Source of the DNA: a virus
Direction: 5' to 3' (one strand)
Virus record (IMG/VR): IMGVR_UViG_3300034121_000161
Span: 1 to 26,776 of that record
DNA length: 26,776 nt
The notes below the pieces were generated by a model. It was not told where the DNA came from, did no database searches, and saw only the letters and a program-made list of their open reading frames with translations. Below, piece after piece: positions 2,682-24,697 of this stretch (positions within the stretch are counted from its first letter, which is position 1; each line of letters begins with the position of its first letter). Both the position numbers and the translations under genes were made by a program.

Positions 2682-2858
2682 TTATTCTATTCTACAACTT
2701 TGTTCTACAGGAAATCCTGGACATTGAAAGCTGGAGCACACTACCCAATAATGACCTTCCGGTGTGTGTATCAACGTGCGTGTATTAGTGTCCGGGCAGT
2801 CAGTTCCGCCACACCCTGAGAGTAGGCTTACCGCGATTATCATCACAAGTGTTTTCAT
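2682..2858 (-). CDS. Small outer-membrane-type lipoprotein, 58 aa
   Basis: The first 16 residues, MKTLVMIIAVSLLSGC, form a type II signal peptide with lipobox LSGC, so lipidation is expected at C16. The +2 residue is Gly rather than Asp, which in enterobacteria favours Lol sorting to the outer membrane. The mature part is about 43 residues with four further cysteines (C21, C41, C46, C56), enough for two disulfides. The start ATG lies inside the 55-aa gene in another frame, with GGAG upstream, overlapping by 59 nt. It is the last gene before the UUCG terminator and is transcribed from a consensus sigma70 promoter. Small phage lipoproteins such as T5 Llp block receptors against superinfection; that role here is a hypothesis. 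Confidence 0.82.
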   Translation of the reverse strand: MKTLVMIIAVSLLSGCGGTDCPDTNTRTLIHTPEGHYWVVCSSFQCPGFPVEQSCRIE

Positions 2859-2967
2859 TTTGTATCTTCTCCAATACTTTACCTAGTTCGGTGTAGAAGT
2901 CATCACCGTGCCGGTCCAAGTGTTCGCGGATGAGTAGTTCTAGTTTTAATCTTTCTGTTAGGGTCAC
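2800..2967 (-). CDS. Small unknown protein, GTG start, 55 aa
   Basis: GTG start overlaps the TGA of the 133-aa gene as GTGA, with AGAAG just upstream, so initiation is probably coupled. The protein begins MTLTERLKLELLIREHLDRHG, a charged amphipathic helix, and continues helical to about residue 40. The C-terminal ~20 residues are encoded in the segment shared with the lipoprotein signal sequence and look unstructured. No membrane segment or known motif is present. The spanin-like layout of overlapping genes is superficial because this protein has no anchor. Confidence rests on the operon fit rather than homology. Confidence 0.6.
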   Translation of the reverse strand: MTLTERLKLELLIREHLDRHGDDFYTELGKVLEKIQNENTCDDNRGKPTLRVWRN

Positions 2968-3365
2968 GCTTCTTCTCCGTGAGTTAGTTTATAAAGCAAA
3001 TCCAATTGTTGGCATCCCTGTTGGTCTTGAATTGCCAAGACACATTCTATAATGTCATCAATACTGGCATCTTGTAAATTACTCCAAAATAAATGAGCAT
3101 AACTATTAGGACTGCTGTCCAATTCAATGTGAAAGTCTTCTTGATTATCTTTAAGATGCGCCAATGCTCGTTCAGGTGTGCGGCTGCCATCACGGGTTAT
3201 GTCTGCCATTTTGTTTAGAGGTGTCCAAAGATAGCAAGTAAAACGAACACCATCCTTACTGGGAATCTTCATTGAGATATATCCCCAAGTGTGTTCAATT
3301 TCATAGCCCATACGAGCCGCGGCCAATTCAAATCTATCTTTAAGAGCAAAGTTCCATTTGGACAT
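2964..3365 (-). CDS. Unknown soluble protein, 133 aa
   Basis: Third gene of the operon transcribed from 3740-3768. It starts one base after the stop of the two-TM gene, with AAGGA inside that gene as its RBS. The sequence looks like an alpha/beta protein: an N-terminal helix (WNFALKDRFELAAARMGYEI), strands around TWGYISMKI and VRFTCYLWT, then a helical C-terminal half including SIDDIIECVLAIQDQQ. No cofactor, catalytic or DNA-binding motif is recognisable. Its place between a membrane protein and a lipoprotein in an early-type operon suggests a host-interaction role, which is inference. Confidence 0.82.
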   Translation of the reverse strand: MSKWNFALKDRFELAAARMGYEIEHTWGYISMKIPSKDGVRFTCYLWTPLNKMADITRDGSRTPERALAHLKDNQEDFHIELDSSPNSYAHLFWSNLQDASIDDIIECVLAIQDQQGCQQLDLLYKLTHGEEA

Positions 3366-3366
3366 T

Positions 3367-3537
3367 TTATTCCTTGACCAGTAGTGCTACCAAAATAAAC
3401 TTCAATGTTGCCAGCATCATTAGTGCAACACCAGCAATCTCATGAATAGCACCATTAGCTGTGGTCAAAACAAATATGCCTATGATATAAGCAAGAATGC
3501 CTAGGATGCCAGATGCTATACAAATAAAGTCTTTCAT
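3367..3537 (-). CDS. Two-TM small membrane protein, 56 aa
   Basis: Start ATG overlaps the previous stop as TAATG, with GAGGAG upstream. Two hydrophobic segments are clear: residues 4-24 (FICIASGILGILAYIIGIFVL) and about 34-52, joined by a short polar turn containing TANGAIH. The protein ends with the charged VKE. Size and topology fit a class II holin, an antiholin or a small membrane effector, but no lysin gene is adjacent. The strong early-type promoter argues against a simple late lysis role. Its partners in the operon are a soluble 133-aa protein and a lipoprotein, so an envelope-directed function is likely. Confidence 0.82.
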   Translation of the reverse strand: MKDFICIASGILGILAYIIGIFVLTTANGAIHEIAGVALMMLATLKFILVALLVKE

Positions 3538-3686
3538 TATGCTGTCTCCTCATTAAAGTATTTCAAATGACCGGCTTCGTCTACCTGGTCAAATCTTAAA
3601 TTGAGATTTTTTAGTGCTTCTAACATATTACTTGCTTCAGTATAAAATACATCACCAGTAAAGGTTATAATTTTCCATTTAGCCAT
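3537..3686 (-). CDS. Unknown small protein, 49 aa
   Basis: The frame is open to an ATG at 3734, but that codon sits at the predicted transcription start of the promoter at 3740-3768. The internal ATG at 3686 has a proper AGAGGAAAT ribosome site and gives the protein MAKWKIITFTGDVFYTEA..., so I choose it. The product is a compact beta-alpha protein: a strand-turn-strand (WKIITFTGDVFYTEA) followed by an amphipathic helix (NMLEALKNLNLRF) and an acidic tail. No family recognised. It is first in a five-gene operon (49 aa, two-TM, 133 aa, 55 aa, lipoprotein). Confidence 0.78.
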   Translation of the reverse strand: MAKWKIITFTGDVFYTEASNMLEALKNLNLRFDQVDEAGHLKYFNEETA

Positions 3687-3722
3687 TTTAATTTCCTCTG
3701 TGTGTGTTAAAGTGTTATGTTC

Positions 3723-3758
3723 CTCGCTGAACATAGTGTATTATACTATGTCAGCGAG
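3723..3758. promoter_or_regulatory. Long palindrome centred on the -10 box (operator candidate)
   Basis: Arms 3723-3737 (CTCGCTGAACATAGT) and 3745-3758 (ACTATGTCAGCGAG) are complementary over 14 bp with one extra A, around a 7-nt centre. The centre holds most of the -10 box of the promoter at 3740-3768. The right arm lies upstream of the predicted transcript start, so the structure would not be in the RNA. That makes a repressor operator, or a DNA cruciform, more likely than an mRNA hairpin. No cognate repressor is identified in the window. Confidence 0.65.
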
Positions 3759-3768
3759 ATTGTGTCAA
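3740..3768 (-). promoter_or_regulatory. Perfect-consensus sigma70 promoter
   Basis: Minus-strand TTGACA (3763-3768), 17-bp spacer, TATAAT (3740-3745): 12 of 12 consensus bases. The -35 box begins one base after the stop codon of the upstream 60-aa gene. The predicted start is near 3733, which places the first usable ATG at 3686. It is embedded in the palindrome at 3723-3758. Confidence 0.9.
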
Positions 3769-3769
3769 T

Positions 3770-3952
3770 TTAAGCGGCTTCTTGCCAATCTTGCCAAATC
3801 TTGCAAACCCAAGCATACTGCATGCCTTGAGTAATATTGACCGCATAGTTTTCAGCATCAGCAAGTTTGAAGATACCTTTCAATGCTCGCGGTGTTTTGG
3901 CTTCTAAAACCATACTAGGATAACCGTTATGAATAAGTTGAACTACTACCAT
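3770..3952 (-). CDS. Unknown small protein, 60 aa
   Basis: Single-gene unit with its own consensus promoter (3987-4015) and an AGGAG site nine bases before the ATG. The predicted protein starts with a beta strand (MVVVQLIHN), has a central helix (KTPRALKGIFKLADAENYA), and ends with a Trp-rich tail (YAWVCKIWQDWQEAA). The layout is similar to that of its small neighbours, with an N-terminal strand pair and then a helix, but no sequence identity is obvious. Function unknown; the promoter type suggests early expression by host RNA polymerase. Confidence 0.8.
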   Translation of the reverse strand: MVVVQLIHNGYPSMVLEAKTPRALKGIFKLADAENYAVNITQGMQYAWVCKIWQDWQEAA

Positions 3953-3986
3953 TTTGTAAACTCCTGTTTAGTGTGTGTAAGTGTTT

Positions 3987-4015
3987 ATTATACTGCCAAA
4001 GTCATTTTGTGTCAA
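3987..4015 (-). promoter_or_regulatory. Perfect-consensus sigma70 promoter
   Basis: Minus-strand TTGACA (4010-4015), 17-bp spacer, TATAAT (3987-3992). The spacer contains the last codon and stop of the upstream 49-aa gene (stop at 4002-4004), showing extreme packing. Predicted start near 3980, leader about 28 nt with AGGAG before the ATG at 3952. Confidence 0.9.
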
Positions 4016-4151
4016 TTACTTCATTGACCCACCAATCGCCCTCATCCTCACCAATGTTGTTGCTTTCAATAAAAGCATTCATAAATTCAAGGGCTTGTTG
4101 CTCAGTATTAAATACCTGCTCAAAATCATAACTGCCTGCGATTGTAAACAT
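4002..4151 (-). CDS. Unknown acidic small protein, 49 aa
   Basis: ATG at 4151 preceded by AGGAG at seven-base spacing, downstream of the promoter at 4214-4242 with a hairpin leader. The protein begins MFTIAGSYDFEQVFNTEQQA, followed by a helix (QALEFMNAFIESN) and a very acidic C-terminal part (NIGEDEGDWWVNEVIDTK). The 3' end overlaps the promoter of the next gene. The acidic tail recalls DNA-mimic or polymerase-binding phage peptides in general character only; there is no specific family evidence. Confidence 0.75.
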   Translation of the reverse strand: MFTIAGSYDFEQVFNTEQQALEFMNAFIESNNIGEDEGDWWVNEVIDTK

Positions 4152-4178
4152 AACTAACTCCTGATTAAAGTTTAAGTA

Positions 4179-4207
4179 ATACAGGACAGCACCTTACTGC
4201 CCTGTAT
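4179..4207 (-). promoter_or_regulatory. 5'-terminal mRNA hairpin
   Basis: Inverted repeat ATACAGGGCAG / CTGTCCTGTAT on the minus strand: 11-bp stem with one G-U pair and a 7-nt loop. Its first base is about 7 nt after the -10 box of the promoter at 4214-4242, so the transcript should begin with the stem. Such 5' stems are known to protect mRNA from RNase E/RppH-dependent decay. It is followed by about 28 nt of single-stranded leader with the RBS. Confidence 0.7.
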
Positions 4208-4213
4208 GTATGT

Positions 4214-4242
4214 ATTATACTACCGAATTGAATTTAAGTCAA
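4214..4242 (-). promoter_or_regulatory. Sigma70 promoter
   Basis: Minus-strand TTGACT (4237-4242), 17-bp spacer, TATAAT (4214-4219). It lies immediately after the stop codon of the 122-aa gene (stop 4244-4246). Predicted start at about 4207, the first base of the 4179-4207 hairpin. Confidence 0.88.
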
Positions 4243-4243
4243 T

Positions 4244-4612
4244 TTAAGCAATTTTTTCGTAGATCATTTTTGCACTATTTTGTTCTTTAGTAGCACGATA
4301 AAGAGCATACAACTCATCAGCGGCTTGAGCATCGGGCAAGCCCCAAACAGTGACCTCTAACTTACTACGGCTTTGCTTTAACTTGCTCATATTGGTAAAT
4401 CCAATAGTCCAGTTTGTGAAATGTATAATTTCCATACTAGTCAATGTGCGATCCATTTCAACATACTTACGCATCATTGTTGGAATACAACTATGAAATT
4501 GTTTGGGCGGCATCATAAGAGGAGGCATATGATCCATATCAACGATTTGAAACCGTTCTTCATTAGTTTTCAAATCACGAACCAAATAACCGAGATATTT
4601 TGTATTTGCCAT
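4244..4612 (-). CDS. Unknown protein, 122 aa
   Basis: The frame is open to an ATG at 4675, but that codon is inside the -35 box of the promoter at 4647-4675. The internal ATG at 4612 follows AGGAG and gives MANTKYLGYLVRDLKTNEER..., so I take this start. The protein is alpha/beta with a Met/Pro-rich loop (VDMDHMPPLMMPPKQFHSC, about 24-42), a strand pair (MEIIHFTNWTIGF) and a C-terminal helix (AADELYALYRATKEQN). No family recognised. A small GAACT/AGTTC hairpin at 4617-4630 places part of the Shine-Dalgarno in its loop. Confidence 0.8.
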   Translation of the reverse strand: MANTKYLGYLVRDLKTNEERFQIVDMDHMPPLMMPPKQFHSCIPTMMRKYVEMDRTLTSMEIIHFTNWTIGFTNMSKLKQSRSKLEVTVWGLPDAQAADELYALYRATKEQNSAKMIYEKIA

Positions 4613-4646
4613 TTTTGAACTCCTAAGTTCTGTTGTTGAAGTAGTT

Positions 4647-4675
4647 ATTATAGCACCAAAATCATTTAATGTCAA
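4647..4675 (-). promoter_or_regulatory. Perfect-consensus sigma70 promoter
   Basis: Minus-strand TTGACA (4670-4675), 17-bp spacer, TATAAT (4647-4652). The predicted start near 4640 gives a 28-nt leader to the ATG at 4612. A second promoter (4724-4752) lies 77 bp upstream, making a tandem pair. Confidence 0.9.
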
Positions 4676-4693
4676 TTAATGCTAATTGCCTTA

Positions 4694-4716
4694 TGAACAG
4701 CGTTTTCTGCTGTCCA
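4694..4716 (-). promoter_or_regulatory. 5'-terminal hairpin after upstream promoter
   Basis: TGGACAGC / GCTGTTCA on the minus strand, 8-bp stem with one G-U pair and a 7-nt loop. It begins one base after the predicted start of the 4724-4752 promoter. It repeats the layout seen at 4179-4207. The eight-codon frame within it (MDSRKRCS) is too weakly supported to call a gene. Confidence 0.6.
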
Positions 4717-4723
4717 TACATTG

Positions 4724-4752
4724 ATTATAACATCAAAACTAATTTAGGCCAA
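4724..4752 (-). promoter_or_regulatory. Sigma70-like promoter, weaker -35
   Basis: Minus-strand TTGGCC (4747-4752, 4 of 6), 17-bp spacer, TATAAT (4724-4729). First promoter after the tail-operon terminator at 4883-4912. The stretch between that terminator and this promoter (about 4753-4882) holds no gene I can support. Confidence 0.7.
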
Positions 4753-4882
4753 TATAAAAAATCCAGCCATACAGGCACCGCAGACAGCGAAAAAAGTGTT
4801 GTTTTTACCACGAAAACCTTATTTCAGCCTAATTTACCTGTTTCAGTGGTCAGTATACTACTTCAGTATGATTTAAGGTAAA

Positions 4883-4912
4883 AAAACCCCCGATATTTCT
4901 AAAGGGGGTTTT
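4883..4912 (-). terminator. Intrinsic terminator ending the tail operon
   Basis: Stem AAAACCCCC/GGGGGTTTT (9 bp) with a 12-nt loop. On the minus strand it is followed by a run of seven T residues. It lies 38 bp after the stop of the NUMOD-like gene and separates the late structural block from the small-gene array. Confidence 0.9.
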
Positions 4913-6099: not shown

Positions 6100-7845
6100 T
6101 TATGCTACAACTAAATGCGTAGCGGTGGCGTAATCGCCAACGACATACGCATTGATTATAATTCTTGGACTGCCTGTGGTAATAGTATGTGTCGTTAAAT
6201 TATTGGTATTGATTCTTGTATTTTTAACTTGAATAGGTGTGCCGCTGGCAGTGTTATTAAACACTAAAATGTTATAACTAGCACCTCGTGTATTTCCAGT
6301 TAGATTAATTAGATCAATGACAGTAGTGCCGCCAGCAAGTGTATCAATTTGAACACTGATGTTGTTGTCCACTGTGGCTGCTGGTGTGTAAGTTGTGCCT
6401 TCACTGATTGTAGTAGTAGTAATTTCAGTGGTAACTGGCACATTAAACTTGGCTGTATTAGCATCTATAACAGCGTAGTCCGTGCCACTACTATTATCAA
6501 ATGTATAAGCATCACTTTTAAATGTAGTAGCATTTGGGCTGGCATTAATAACCTGAATACCAGTAGTAGCACCTATTTTATTAGCAGTGAAAATAACACT
6601 GGTGCCCTGTGCAAGAGTAGTCCAAGTTTCTGTGGCTTGAGCATCAATACTAACACCCGGACCTGTTGTGCCACCAGGACTACCACCACTTAATGCATTA
6701 CCATTAAACTTAAACTGTCCTAAATAATCACCACTCTGTGTTGGTGAATAAGTGCCACCACTACTTCTTTGAGTATTAAAATTAATAAGAGCATATTCAC
6801 TGCCTGTAGTAGCATCTAGTTTGTTTACACTAAAAGTTGTTTTACCAGTGCCGTCATCTGCCAGTGTTGCCATAGAAGTAGCATTGGTTTTACCTTTACT
6901 CCAAGAAAAACTATCGCTTCTCGTAGCAAATGTCTGTGGATTAGCATTTAATATTGTAATTCTATTAGCATTGGCGCCGCCCATATTTGTGGCAGTGGGA
7001 TAACAGGCTATTTGATAACCTGTGCCAGCATTTGTTACTGTGCCTGCGCCATTATCAGCCCAGTTTTCTGTGGCAACGAAAAAGGCTGCTCCAGGCGTAG
7101 CACTGACTAAATTAGCAACATAATTATTTGTAGCATAACCTGTGACACTGGATTCACCTATTAAGTCGTTATTTTGTATTGCTGTGGGCGTTGTTTCTGT
7201 GCCTCTGGCATTTTCAAAGAATATGCCGCCGCGAGCACCACCAGTCACTGGGAATGTTCGCATTACTATAGCATTACGAGCACTGGCCGCACTACTTGCA
7301 TTGCCATTACTGATCATTAAGCCTCTATGATTAGTAGCACCTGCTAATGCGTAAATTACAGGACTGGTATATCTATTTGTGCCATTGATAATACTGCTAC
7401 CAGTTTTAGCACCAATATTAGTTGTTGTGGCTGCACCACTTACATTTACTGTTGTTGCTGTGGTATTGAATACACTGGCAGTTGTTTGTGTTGTTGTGAT
7501 ATCGCCACCATTGACTGCTAGATCACCTGAATTAATTGTGTTGGCAGCAGTGATAGTTAATGTGCCTTCTCCATCACCTGTTGGTGTTGTAGGTCCACTG
7601 GCTAGCATTCTTACATCATAGTCTACGCTACTTGCACTACTGTGAAAATCTATATAAGGAGTGCCTGCAACTGTTCTACCAGTTAGACCGATTTCAATTC
7701 TACCATTATCGCCCACTCCTGCACCGACTGTAATTTGTCCATTATCGCCTTCAGCGAATACGCCTTCACCTGTAGTAGCATCTATTGTTGCCGCGGTGTC
7801 GCCTACTGCGAGACCAAATTTTACTTTAAATTTTTCGTTTGCCAT
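6100..7845 (-). CDS. Repetitive tail fibre protein, 581 aa
   Basis: Thr/Asn/Gly/Ala-rich, low in charged residues, with beta-strand-like repeats typical of trimeric fibre shafts. Residues 106-140 (GDLAVNGGDITTTQTTASVF...) are nearly the same as two segments in the upstream 780-aa fibre. The N-terminus (MANEKFKVKFGLAVGDTAAT) lacks the RRGT head of the upstream fibre and probably attaches to it or to the tip. Further repeats of the kind YAVIDANTAKFNV / YALINFNTQRSSGG occur in the centre. The C-terminal ~90 residues (SVQIDTLAGGTTVIDLINLT to ATHLVVA) look like a compact beta domain that may contact the receptor. No collagen repeat, peptidase or lectin motif seen. Confidence 0.8.
   Translation of the reverse strand: MANEKFKVKFGLAVGDTAATIDATTGEGVFAEGDNGQITVGAGVGDNGRIEIGLTGRTVAGTPYIDFHSSASSVDYDVRMLASGPTTPTGDGEGTLTITAANTINSGDLAVNGGDITTTQTTASVFNTTATTVNVSGAATTTNIGAKTGSSIINGTNRYTSPVIYALAGATNHRGLMISNGNASSAASARNAIVMRTFPVTGGARGGIFFENARGTETTPTAIQNNDLIGESSVTGYATNNYVANLVSATPGAAFFVATENWADNGAGTVTNAGTGYQIACYPTATNMGGANANRITILNANPQTFATRSDSFSWSKGKTNATSMATLADDGTGKTTFSVNKLDATTGSEYALINFNTQRSSGGTYSPTQSGDYLGQFKFNGNALSGGSPGGTTGPGVSIDAQATETWTTLAQGTSVIFTANKIGATTGIQVINASPNATTFKSDAYTFDNSSGTDYAVIDANTAKFNVPVTTEITTTTISEGTTYTPAATVDNNISVQIDTLAGGTTVIDLINLTGNTRGASYNILVFNNTASGTPIQVKNTRINTNNLTTHTITTGSPRIIINAYVVGDYATATHLVVA
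7423..7527 (-). repeat. Fibre repeat unit, copy in 581-aa fibre
   Basis: Encodes GDLAVNGGDITTTQTTASVF followed by NTTATTVNVSGAATT (35 aa). It shares most residues, and long DNA stretches such as CCACCATTGACTGCTA, with the copy at 8799-8903 in the neighbouring fibre gene. A continuation (TNIGAKTGS) extends the same pattern. Confidence 0.9.
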
Positions 7846-10221: not shown

Positions 10222-13200
10222 TTATGTTGGGTCAATTTGCCAAACAAATGTTTCTACATCTGTTGTTGCTGATGTCACTGTGTTTTCTACTACACTTACT
10301 AATCCTAAATCTAACTGAGCACTACTTCCTATATTATTGTCGTTGCCGAAATCCACAGGATTCATAGTTCTAAATAATAAGAAACCATTGTTGGGTATAA
10401 CCAAGCTGCCAAAATCTAATTTAACTAATGCCTTTGTTATATTTAACACAGTTACGCTGCCGGCTCCTGCATCTGGTTCGTAATGAAAGTTACCATCTTT
10501 ATCAACAGTAGTCGGAACGCTGAATGCACCAAATCTCTTCTTAATACCCATTCGTGATATGATAAACCAACGACGATATGTTTGTGTATTGGCAGGTAAT
10601 TCAGTGATAGTTACATTAATAGTTTCGCCATTGGTAAATGTTGCGGTGTTACCGTTGGGTGTTACTTTCTTAAAGAAATTGTAGTCACTGGGTATTGGTA
10701 GATCAAAAATGGTATCTGTGCCTGATGTAGTCACTGACTGACTAACTGTGTAAGTGCCAAGACCGCCAAATACTGTATAAGTGCCGGCAGCCTGTGCTGT
10801 AAAGAAAGTATCTAGAGTAACTTGACTGCCGGATATTGCTGTAATGTGTGCGCCACCTGTGGGCAGTCCGGTGCCTACTAAATTATTACCTATTAATAAT
10901 CCTGTGGTGTTGTTCAGTGTTACAGTATTCACTGGAGGACTAAATGTGCCACCACTGAAAAATGTTTTGCTTACTGGATTATTTGTAAGTTGATTAACAA
11001 CTGTGACACCACCTAGGTCAAAATAGTCTCCAACGTTGATTGTTCCGAATGGTGCACTTGTTACAGTCATTATACTTTGACTTGCTCCAACTTCACTGGT
11101 AATAGTTCCGCCTGTGGTAAATCCAGTTGCTGTGCTGGCGTATGATATACTATTGGTTGTGACCCCTGTAATTGTTTTAACGCCATTATATCCACTAGGA
11201 GTCATTCCAGCAATAGTTACAACTTGACCAATTTCATAAAAAACAAACGCCGGACTTGCTGGCGTAAATGTAAGAGTTGCCACTGAGCCTGTGCCTGATG
11301 CTCCTGTCACAGGAATTTGTCCTGCTACAATGTTACCAGTAATATTCATCTCGTCCCAACCTTCTGTGACATAGAATTCTATTTCATCATATGGACCGCC
11401 AGTTGCGGGTATTTGAACTTGTAATTGAAAGTTAGGAATTGGATCAGTATCATTAACTTTAACAATGGCCAGTCTCGGTGGCAGTGGCATATTTGGACTT
11501 GTTCCATATACACCAATACCAATTTTAACATTTGCTTCTGTGGTAAATTCTGTGATAGGTTCTATTGTATATGCATCACCATTATATTCTAATCCCTGTA
11601 TCTGTGCTACCAATCCACCATCTTCAGTTTCTTGTTCTTTGACACGCATTACACGGAATAACTTTGGATACCATCCGTATAGATCAGATGTTACTGCAAC
11701 AATATCTCCAGCCTGTGCTTGTATGCCATAGTGATTTGCGGTAAATTCTATGACTAAGTCATCACGACTTTGACGCAGTTCTACTTGACCCAATATATCA
11801 CTCTGCATTGAGTTATTAACTAAATCTAAACTCATTCGTAGTTGATTGTCTGGCTCGTTGGGATTGCGTTGTAGTTGCGGTAAATCTACTCTATAGTATG
11901 CCTTTTGATCTTTGTTATATCTATCAAAAAATTCTACTTCTAATTTATTGTATAAGTCATCAAGTCTTGTTGAACTAATGTTGATACCAGAAATAATATT
12001 GTCATCACTGAACTCTAGTAAGTTGGGTGCTGTTGTATAAAAGGTTGTTGATGCTATTGCACCACTTGTTGATGTTGTATATTTTCCTATTTGTCCAGCC
12101 GTTTGTCCTGCGGTAGGTGCAACTTGTCCTGTGATAGTGCCAATTAGCGTGCCAGCACTATTATAAAGCAGTTGTCCTGTTTCAATTCTACCTTCTGGAA
12201 ATACTGTTACAGTTAATTCATTTCCGGCATTTCTACTTGCTGTAAAATGTGTAGTTGTTTCTGTGGGATCACCAGCAGTAATGGCTTTCTTAATTACAGG
12301 TCTCCATAGTCCTGTGCTGACATCATAACTCATCCAAGCACCACCATTTTGTAAAATAGTGTCTATGTTTGTTTTAACTTGATTACTTGTGTCAATAACA
12401 CCATTTATGTTATAGCGTAATGTGCTTTGGTTTGTATTGCCGGCAGCATTGGTGTAACTGATATCTTCTTCGCAGTAATTATACCAAGCCAGTCTTGCTG
12501 TCTCATCAATGTAAGCAGGATCAATGTTAGCACCATAACGCTCACTGGTCATATAGTCATACCATACATCAGCAGGATTTGCTACATTGTTGGCTAATTG
12601 GAATGTGACATTAGGTAATGAAGTAAAACCTTTTTCACCATTGTAAGTTAGTCTAACTATGGCAAACACTAGACCTTCCATAGCATAATCTGTGGTCCAA
12701 CTATTGTCATTGTCTCCCCAGAAGTCATATGCTGCCTGTGTTTGCCCTGATGACTGTGGAGGATAGATTTGGTCTGCGGCTGCTGTGCTACCAGCATACA
12801 CTCTAAGTTGAACTAGATTTTTATTATCAGTAACGAAATTAGTGTCAATCCAATCTTCTTCTTGTGCTGTTCCAGTTCCGGTGCCTGCATTAGCACAGGT
12901 AAAGATACTGCCTAATTCATATACTCTAGGAGTAGCACTTGTGCCTGCTATAGTATTCCAGTTTATTTGAGTTGTAGTGCCGAGGCTTCTTATAATATAA
13001 GTTTTGCCAACTACGAAACTACCAGCAGTAATAATAGCACCATCAACTACTTTTCTACCATCTTTAACTTTATATAAGTCTGTTGCATCAGGAGTTAGTC
13101 TAAGGTCATTCCAATAAACACCTTCTAGGCCATACACAGGACTTCCTACTGGAATATTATTACTTGTTTCGCTGAGAACAATACAATAAAACATTGTATC

Positions 13201-24334: not shown

Positions 24335-24697
24335 TTATGCTTGCGTCTGCCATCTAATAACGGCATTTCTTCTGTTAGCATCAGCCATCTTCAATCTTGT
24401 TGATTCAGGCTTTGGTATATTCTTTTGTCTTTGACTTTGTCTAATCTTAAAATCTTCAGGCATAACTTTCTCGCTACTATTTTCTTCATTAGTTAGTTTG
24501 CGAACATTGCTGGGATGATAAGGCCCAGCATCTCCTAGGCGTGCCATACATAATTTACCTTTACCGCGACCACGATTAAGAATATCGTTGCCCCACCATT
24601 CTACCCAAGATTCATAGGTAAATTGCCATTCAATCTTTCTAATGATAGCCGTGTGCATTTGGCTCATATACTTTGCTTTAATTTTATCTTTATACAT
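24335..24697 (-). CDS. Compact HNH/His-Me-finger-like protein, 120 aa
   Basis: Between large terminase and portal. The segment IEWQFTYESWVEWWGNDILN, then RGKGKLCMARLGDAGPYHPS and NVRKLTNEENSSEK, follows the W......R....L.MAR..D.GPY...NV...T..EN pattern of short phage HNH-related proteins; the H and N residues (H at about 61, N64, N72) resemble the second half of an HNH fold. The first Cys/His pair typical of HNH is not seen, so activity is uncertain. The C-terminus is rich in Lys/Arg/Gln. A homing endonuclease remnant or packaging nuclease partner are both possible. Start is uncertain: an ATG at 24667 (MSQMHTA) is an alternative. Confidence 0.65.
   Translation of the reverse strand: MYKDKIKAKYMSQMHTAIIRKIEWQFTYESWVEWWGNDILNRGRGKGKLCMARLGDAGPYHPSNVRKLTNEENSSEKVMPEDFKIRQSQRQKNIPKPESTRLKMADANRRNAVIRWQTQA

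Follow-up and report, generated by a model that had tools for sequence, protein, structure and literature searches.

Promoter-leader sequences are kept while small genes differ in a putative early block of an uncultured tailed phage

Phages renew their early genes fast, which raises the puzzle of how a newly gained gene obtains a working promoter at once. The locus described here bears on this question and lies in a 26.8-kb contig of an uncultured virus (IMGVR_UViG_3300034121_000161; "the window" is that whole stretch of 26,776 nucleotides), whose source is a tailed phage with a ~29-kb genome. The minus strand carries all six promoters discussed below and the window's identified genes, with terminase, portal, capsid and tape-measure genes spanning 26 kb down to 15.7 kb. 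The capsid protein matches phrog_267 and shows 43 to 51% identity to those of Pelagibacter phages HTVC112P/026P/111P/202P and Phage DSL-LC06. An intrinsic terminator (4883 to 4912, minus strand; 9-bp stem AAAACCCCC/GGGGGTTTT, then a T run) closes the structural block, and resembling hairpins occupy the equivalent place in six of the seven relatives checked. It is followed by promoters and small genes, by a second intrinsic terminator closing the array (2539 to 2560, minus), and by a promoter TTGACT-17-TATACT (2492 to 2520, minus) that precedes the conserved genes 2409-2071 and 2074-434. A match to NsiR4 (Rfam) over the terminator region was sub-threshold and was rejected. Searching named phages with the first 8 kb of the window as DNA gave no match, and the named relatives DSL-LC06 and HTVC112P have no comparable promoter array. 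Between the portal and terminase genes, we also observe a small protein gene (24335 to 24697, minus), with matches to phrog_16521 (E 2e-20) and, weakly, to the HNH-endonuclease family phrog_3377 (E 0.0016).

Four TTGACN-17-TATAAT promoters, three of them perfect, and one TTGGCC/TATAAT site lie within ~1 kb of the minus strand. The perfect ones (TTGACA-17-TATAAT at 4647 to 4675, 3987 to 4015 and 3740 to 3768; promoters are named below by their upper coordinate) agree with the consensus at 12/12 positions and have 17-bp spacers, and the other promoters score 11/12 once (TTGACT-17-TATAAT, 4214 to 4242) and 10/12 twice. The TTGGCC-17-TATAAT promoter (4724 to 4752, minus) has no gene of its own and stands in tandem with promoter 4675, 77 bp upstream of it. 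Across the whole window, four TTGACN-17-TATAAT sites compare with 0.047 expected (maximum 1 in 1000 dinucleotide shuffles), and in 3501-4900 the count of TTGnnn-17-TATAAT sites is five, where 0.07 would be expected and none of 2000 shuffles has as many. On this sequence evidence, the promoter array is real and beyond chance. All six promoters claimed in the initial annotation were found at the coordinates that it gave, with 17-bp spacers, and its description of -35 boxes abutting or overlapping stop codons also holds: stop 4246-4244 adjoins the -35 box of promoter 4242, stop 3772-3770 adjoins that of promoter 3768, and gene 4151-4002 has its stop within the spacer of promoter 4015-3987. To these features we add the terminator at 4912-4883, three leader stem-loops and sequence conservation that extends past the hexamers.

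The open reading frames of 122 aa (4244 to 4612), 49 aa (4002 to 4151, its stop inside the next promoter), 60 aa (3770 to 3952) and 49 aa (3537 to 3686), all on the minus strand, had been read correctly, and each of these four genes has its own promoter. The wider statement that almost every gene here does so fails for the further small genes at 2682 to 3537 (minus; 56, 133, 55 and 58 aa), namely 3537-3367, 3365-2964, 2967-2800 and 2858-2682, which are probably read from promoter 3768. A profile search left the four cassette proteins without a Pfam or PHROGs match. The 122-aa protein has no relative among named phages or viral contigs, and its AlphaFold model (pLDDT 62) gave no significant fold match.

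With respect to related contigs, the genes flanking the array are conserved (g5730 up to 96%, g4951 up to 76% and g434 up to 92% identity), and the six genes in the interval 4612-2964 lack relatives in all related contigs compared. With the sister contig L157, where g5730 is 90% identical, the array aligns over 322 of its 372 non-coding bases versus 46 of its 852 coding bases; judged by this alignment, the keeping of non-coding over coding sequence is the reverse of the usual pattern. All blastn matches of the array to L157 coincide with promoter-leaders and stop close to the start codon (4718-4598, 4247-4158, 4018-3953 and 3779-3689). Promoter order is kept, with 4752/4675, 4242 and 3768 corresponding to 12492/12568, 13080 and 13611 in L157; all 29 bases of promoter 4675 are identical there, and promoter 4015 has no separate counterpart. 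The proteins downstream are unrelated (122 vs. 149 aa, 49 vs. 145 aa, and 49 aa vs. a lipoprotein-like 86 aa). Among small-phage cassettes, 17 of 24 promoter-leader matches have unrelated downstream proteins, and the remaining seven comprise four with a leader lacking a called start, two tandem promoters of one gene and one shared gene, L012/L161 being the sole cassette pair that shares its gene. The expectation in the initial annotation that promoters would be kept while small genes vary is thus borne out by aligned contigs, with the evidence for gene exchange coming mostly from one close pair, the window and L157. The array varies within the lineage, because L005, the closest rep relative, has weaker promoters, and in relative L161 terminator-like hairpins stand immediately before promoters 11451 and 11999. 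We consider it probable, from these comparisons, that the locus consists of early-expression cassettes doubling as gene-exchange sites, comparable to the promoter-early stem-loops (PeSLs) discussed below and belonging to another lineage.

One could instead suppose ordinary strong early promoters, each selected for host RNA polymerase binding, with neither cassettes nor exchange. Promoter function alone could preserve both hexamers, and T4 early promoters likewise have a consensus outside the hexamers (PMC2988021). However, spacer and leader are similar as well, all the way to the start codon (90% over 90 nt for promoter 4242 and its leader against L157 13080; 87% over 86 nt), the conserved units include stem-loops that polymerase does not need, promoter order is kept between contigs with different genes, and a scan with a scrambled leader (below) gives 0 matches. 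Ordinary promoters are, in our view, an improbable account.

The stem-loops in the window's leaders lie at 4692 to 4718 (10 bp; promoter 4752), 4179 to 4207 (13 pairs with G-U; promoter 4242) and 3716 to 3735 (7 bp; promoter 3768), all on the minus strand. Among 27 leaders of the small-phage lineage, 16 have a stem of at least six pairs starting at most 12 nt from the -10 box, against 6.6 expected in shuffled leaders (sd 2.1, maximum 14, 300 shuffles), and 10 have at least seven pairs against 2.8 expected, counts that are not fully independent because some leaders are orthologous. Their position is kept and their stem sequences differ. The idea that the stem-loop generally belongs to the motif described below was rejected: in 348 other viral leaders, among the matches listed, 59 were observed versus 70 in shuffled sequence, and because these leaders show no excess it is not part of the general element. 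Transcription normally starts ~7 nt past the -10 box, and the window's leader stem-loops would therefore be 5'-terminal; they should not terminate transcription, because they have no T run and are located after the promoter. Such 5'-terminal stem-loops can shield bacterial RNA from decay.

A further inverted repeat was observed at the -10 box itself, where the L157 13611 region carries a perfect, operator-like 12-bp repeat (GCTGAACATAGT/ACTATGTTCAGC) centred on the -10, and the window has a shorter, 7-bp form of the same repeat at 3768-3716, with the -10 of promoter 3768 inside it. These repeats favor an explanation in which the conserved spacer and palindromes are operators, by which a phage regulator would silence the block later or in a lysogen, in the manner of the Aca-type regulators that shut early blocks of other viruses (PMC11065993). 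The palindrome is, however, limited to one cassette type, and no repressor or integrase gene was recognised among the window genes scanned; we regard the operator explanation as unlikely and retain that of early-expression cassettes.

Other repeated elements and structures were observed in this lineage. A second type of cassette that has diverged, TAGACC-AAATGG..-TACAAT/TAAACT plus a TGTTGTAGC..TACAAC stem-loop, stands before small genes at 11158, 11415 and 11737 in L157 and at 7331 and 7413 in L005. Between two cassettes of L005 (7690-8040) there are about six iteron-like tandem copies of a roughly 40- to 60-bp unit (aatacttaagttacgagtgttgtttttggcatacgag). In the gap preceding promoter 2520, a candidate structured RNA (2665-2531, minus) ends in the terminator and is also found in L005, L006, L012, L013, L015, L027, L031, L157, L160 and L161. 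Its 8-bp closing stem is paired in 11/11 contigs (88/88 cells), with both sides changed at the majority of the variable pairs, and encloses an invariant ATTTGCCAAAGT; a variable hairpin and then the terminator follow. The candidate has no Rfam match.

The conserved sequence outside the hexamers can be stated as an extended motif. Spacers carry AAAT or AATT from two bases past the -35 hexamer; TTTGG close to the -10 is frequent, as is TATAATAnnnACATAG following the -10. Scanning with TTGACnnnAAWT-N11-TATAATAnnnACATAG gave at least 120 matching stretches in viral contigs, versus 0 in a control scan of viral contigs with ACATAG swapped for GATACA. In 257 Gb of cellular genomes, we observe six scattered matches, five of them Firmicutes-type, which disfavors the motif as an ordinary host promoter, bearing in mind that the true host may be absent from that set; a blastn search of named phages found no exact motif. 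At the viral loci among the matches listed, 129 of 236 TTGAC-N18-TATAAT sites outside the full pattern also have AAWT, and a whole record can contain as many as 44 TTGAC-N18-TATAAT sites, typically on a single strand, with 0 to 2 of the reversed pattern. Of 259 AAWT-type promoters among the matches listed, 207 have a ribosome site and a start codon downstream (17% at random positions), at a median distance to the start of 32 nt (quartiles 30 to 33), and the proteins behind them, from 88 families, have a median length of 90 aa. In the window, the short leaders (34 nt) agree with the median distance, and the long ones (53 and 62 nt) bear stem-loops.

The motif-bearing viral contigs among the matches listed reach 354 kb, several being T4-type; a T4-type Gp23 match over the cut-off was found in eight large records, six of these matches being long, and Gp23 is absent from the window's relatives G001, G006 and G008. 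Sharing between phages, among the matches listed, is often 80 to 90% over 45 to 56 nt and includes one 30-nt identity, the 30 leader bases that are identical in L121, a 172-kb contig, and L006. Of all the findings, this sharing across unrelated phage lineages is the most unexpected. It may reflect convergence on the polymerase of one shared host, and the same data fit transfer too. More tentatively, and with some doubt on our part, the similarities could point to an extended promoter-leader that is a virus-borne module moved between unrelated lineages (~29 kb to T4-type 150-350 kb) and a plug-in site for expression and exchange.

We compared the array with known systems. The window meets the general pattern of host sigma70 early promoters, with TTGACA/TATAAT, 16- to 18-bp spacing and a position before genes. 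PeSLs of T4-type phages are promoter/stem-loop units held to mediate gene shuffling (PMC4503421, citing Arbiol 2010 and Comeau 2014). As PeSLs are described, both systems repeat strong sigma70-type promoters with stem-loops where genes are poorly conserved, and both tie these units to small-gene exchange between close relatives, here by comparison. Compared with PeSLs, the window differs in that its leader stem-loops lack T runs and come after the promoter, with terminators bounding only the whole block and none in each unit, in that it is a small, non-T4-type phage by its phrog_267 capsid, and in that its conserved spacer/leader motif is its own. In SIRV2 and other archaeal viruses, a strong shared regulatory sequence precedes many unrelated small early genes, some of them anti-defence (PMC11065993). 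The likeness is one highly similar strong promoter before many unrelated, poorly conserved small genes; the promoter there is, in contrast, an archaeal TATA/BRE promoter, and anti-defence roles have been tested there, whereas none is known for the window's proteins. The start-associated sequences (SAS/ESAS) of cluster K mycobacteriophages are conserved repeats immediately upstream of small genes that lie at the ribosome site and are not recognisable promoters; some contain inverted repeats, which were judged not to form RNA hairpins (PMC3203893); the window's conserved sequence, unlike SAS, takes in the -35 and -10 boxes. Finally, the cultured T4-type Acidovorax phage ACP17 (NC_041997, L177) has, at 4776-28941, many small genes preceded by copies of one promoter-leader, GAAACTGTTCTATAAT-N4-GCACAGCAAACGAAACAGGAG. 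Its leader resembles those of uncultured large contigs, and it differs in its spacer and -35, with 18-bp spacing where a -35 is visible; by sequence comparison, the ACP17 array is a parallel system and not the same motif.

What the small proteins do is a separate matter. That they serve host takeover or anti-defence, an explanation compatible with the cassettes, we rate as a fair-sized possibility falling short of even. The early genes are small, unrelated and quickly replaced, and in archaeal viruses anti-CRISPR and anti-toxin-antitoxin genes are among those that a shared early regulatory sequence precedes (PMC11065993); however, the window's cassette proteins match no known family, and among the cassette genes of relatives are ones for AAA-ATPase-like proteins and for a NUMOD3-motif (homing-endonuclease-type) protein. 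The early host-takeover reading in the initial annotation therefore stands in part: the region fits an early block because it follows the late terminator, precedes conserved replication-side genes and has host-type promoters, and promoters are kept while genes vary, but takeover genes do not have the cassettes to themselves, because relatives' cassettes hold the proteins just named.

Returning to early-expression cassettes as sites of gene exchange, the region would be an early block of standard units, in each of which a strong sigma70-type promoter whose spacer is conserved is followed by a 30- to 60-nt leader, frequently with a stem-loop at its beginning, and then by a ribosome-binding site and a small gene. 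Host RNA polymerase would fire all promoters simultaneously once the phage DNA has entered, presumably early and strongly in the host, and many short messages would arise, with 5' stem-loops that probably slow decay. In the aligned contigs, the cassettes are the stable part of the locus, with position and order kept and the intervening genes swapped, and gene replacement would occur most simply by recombination between repeated promoter-leader sequences.

The sequence suggests that promoter and leader are a fixed socket and the genes the exchangeable part. Because the scrambled control gave 0 matches, the motif is specific enough to seek early genes of uncultured phages by promoter and not by protein similarity, an approach with precedent in archaeal viruses. 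If the transferable-module reading is true, the motif can gather early host-interaction genes from uncultured phages. ACP17, which is cultured and has a parallel array, could serve as a model.
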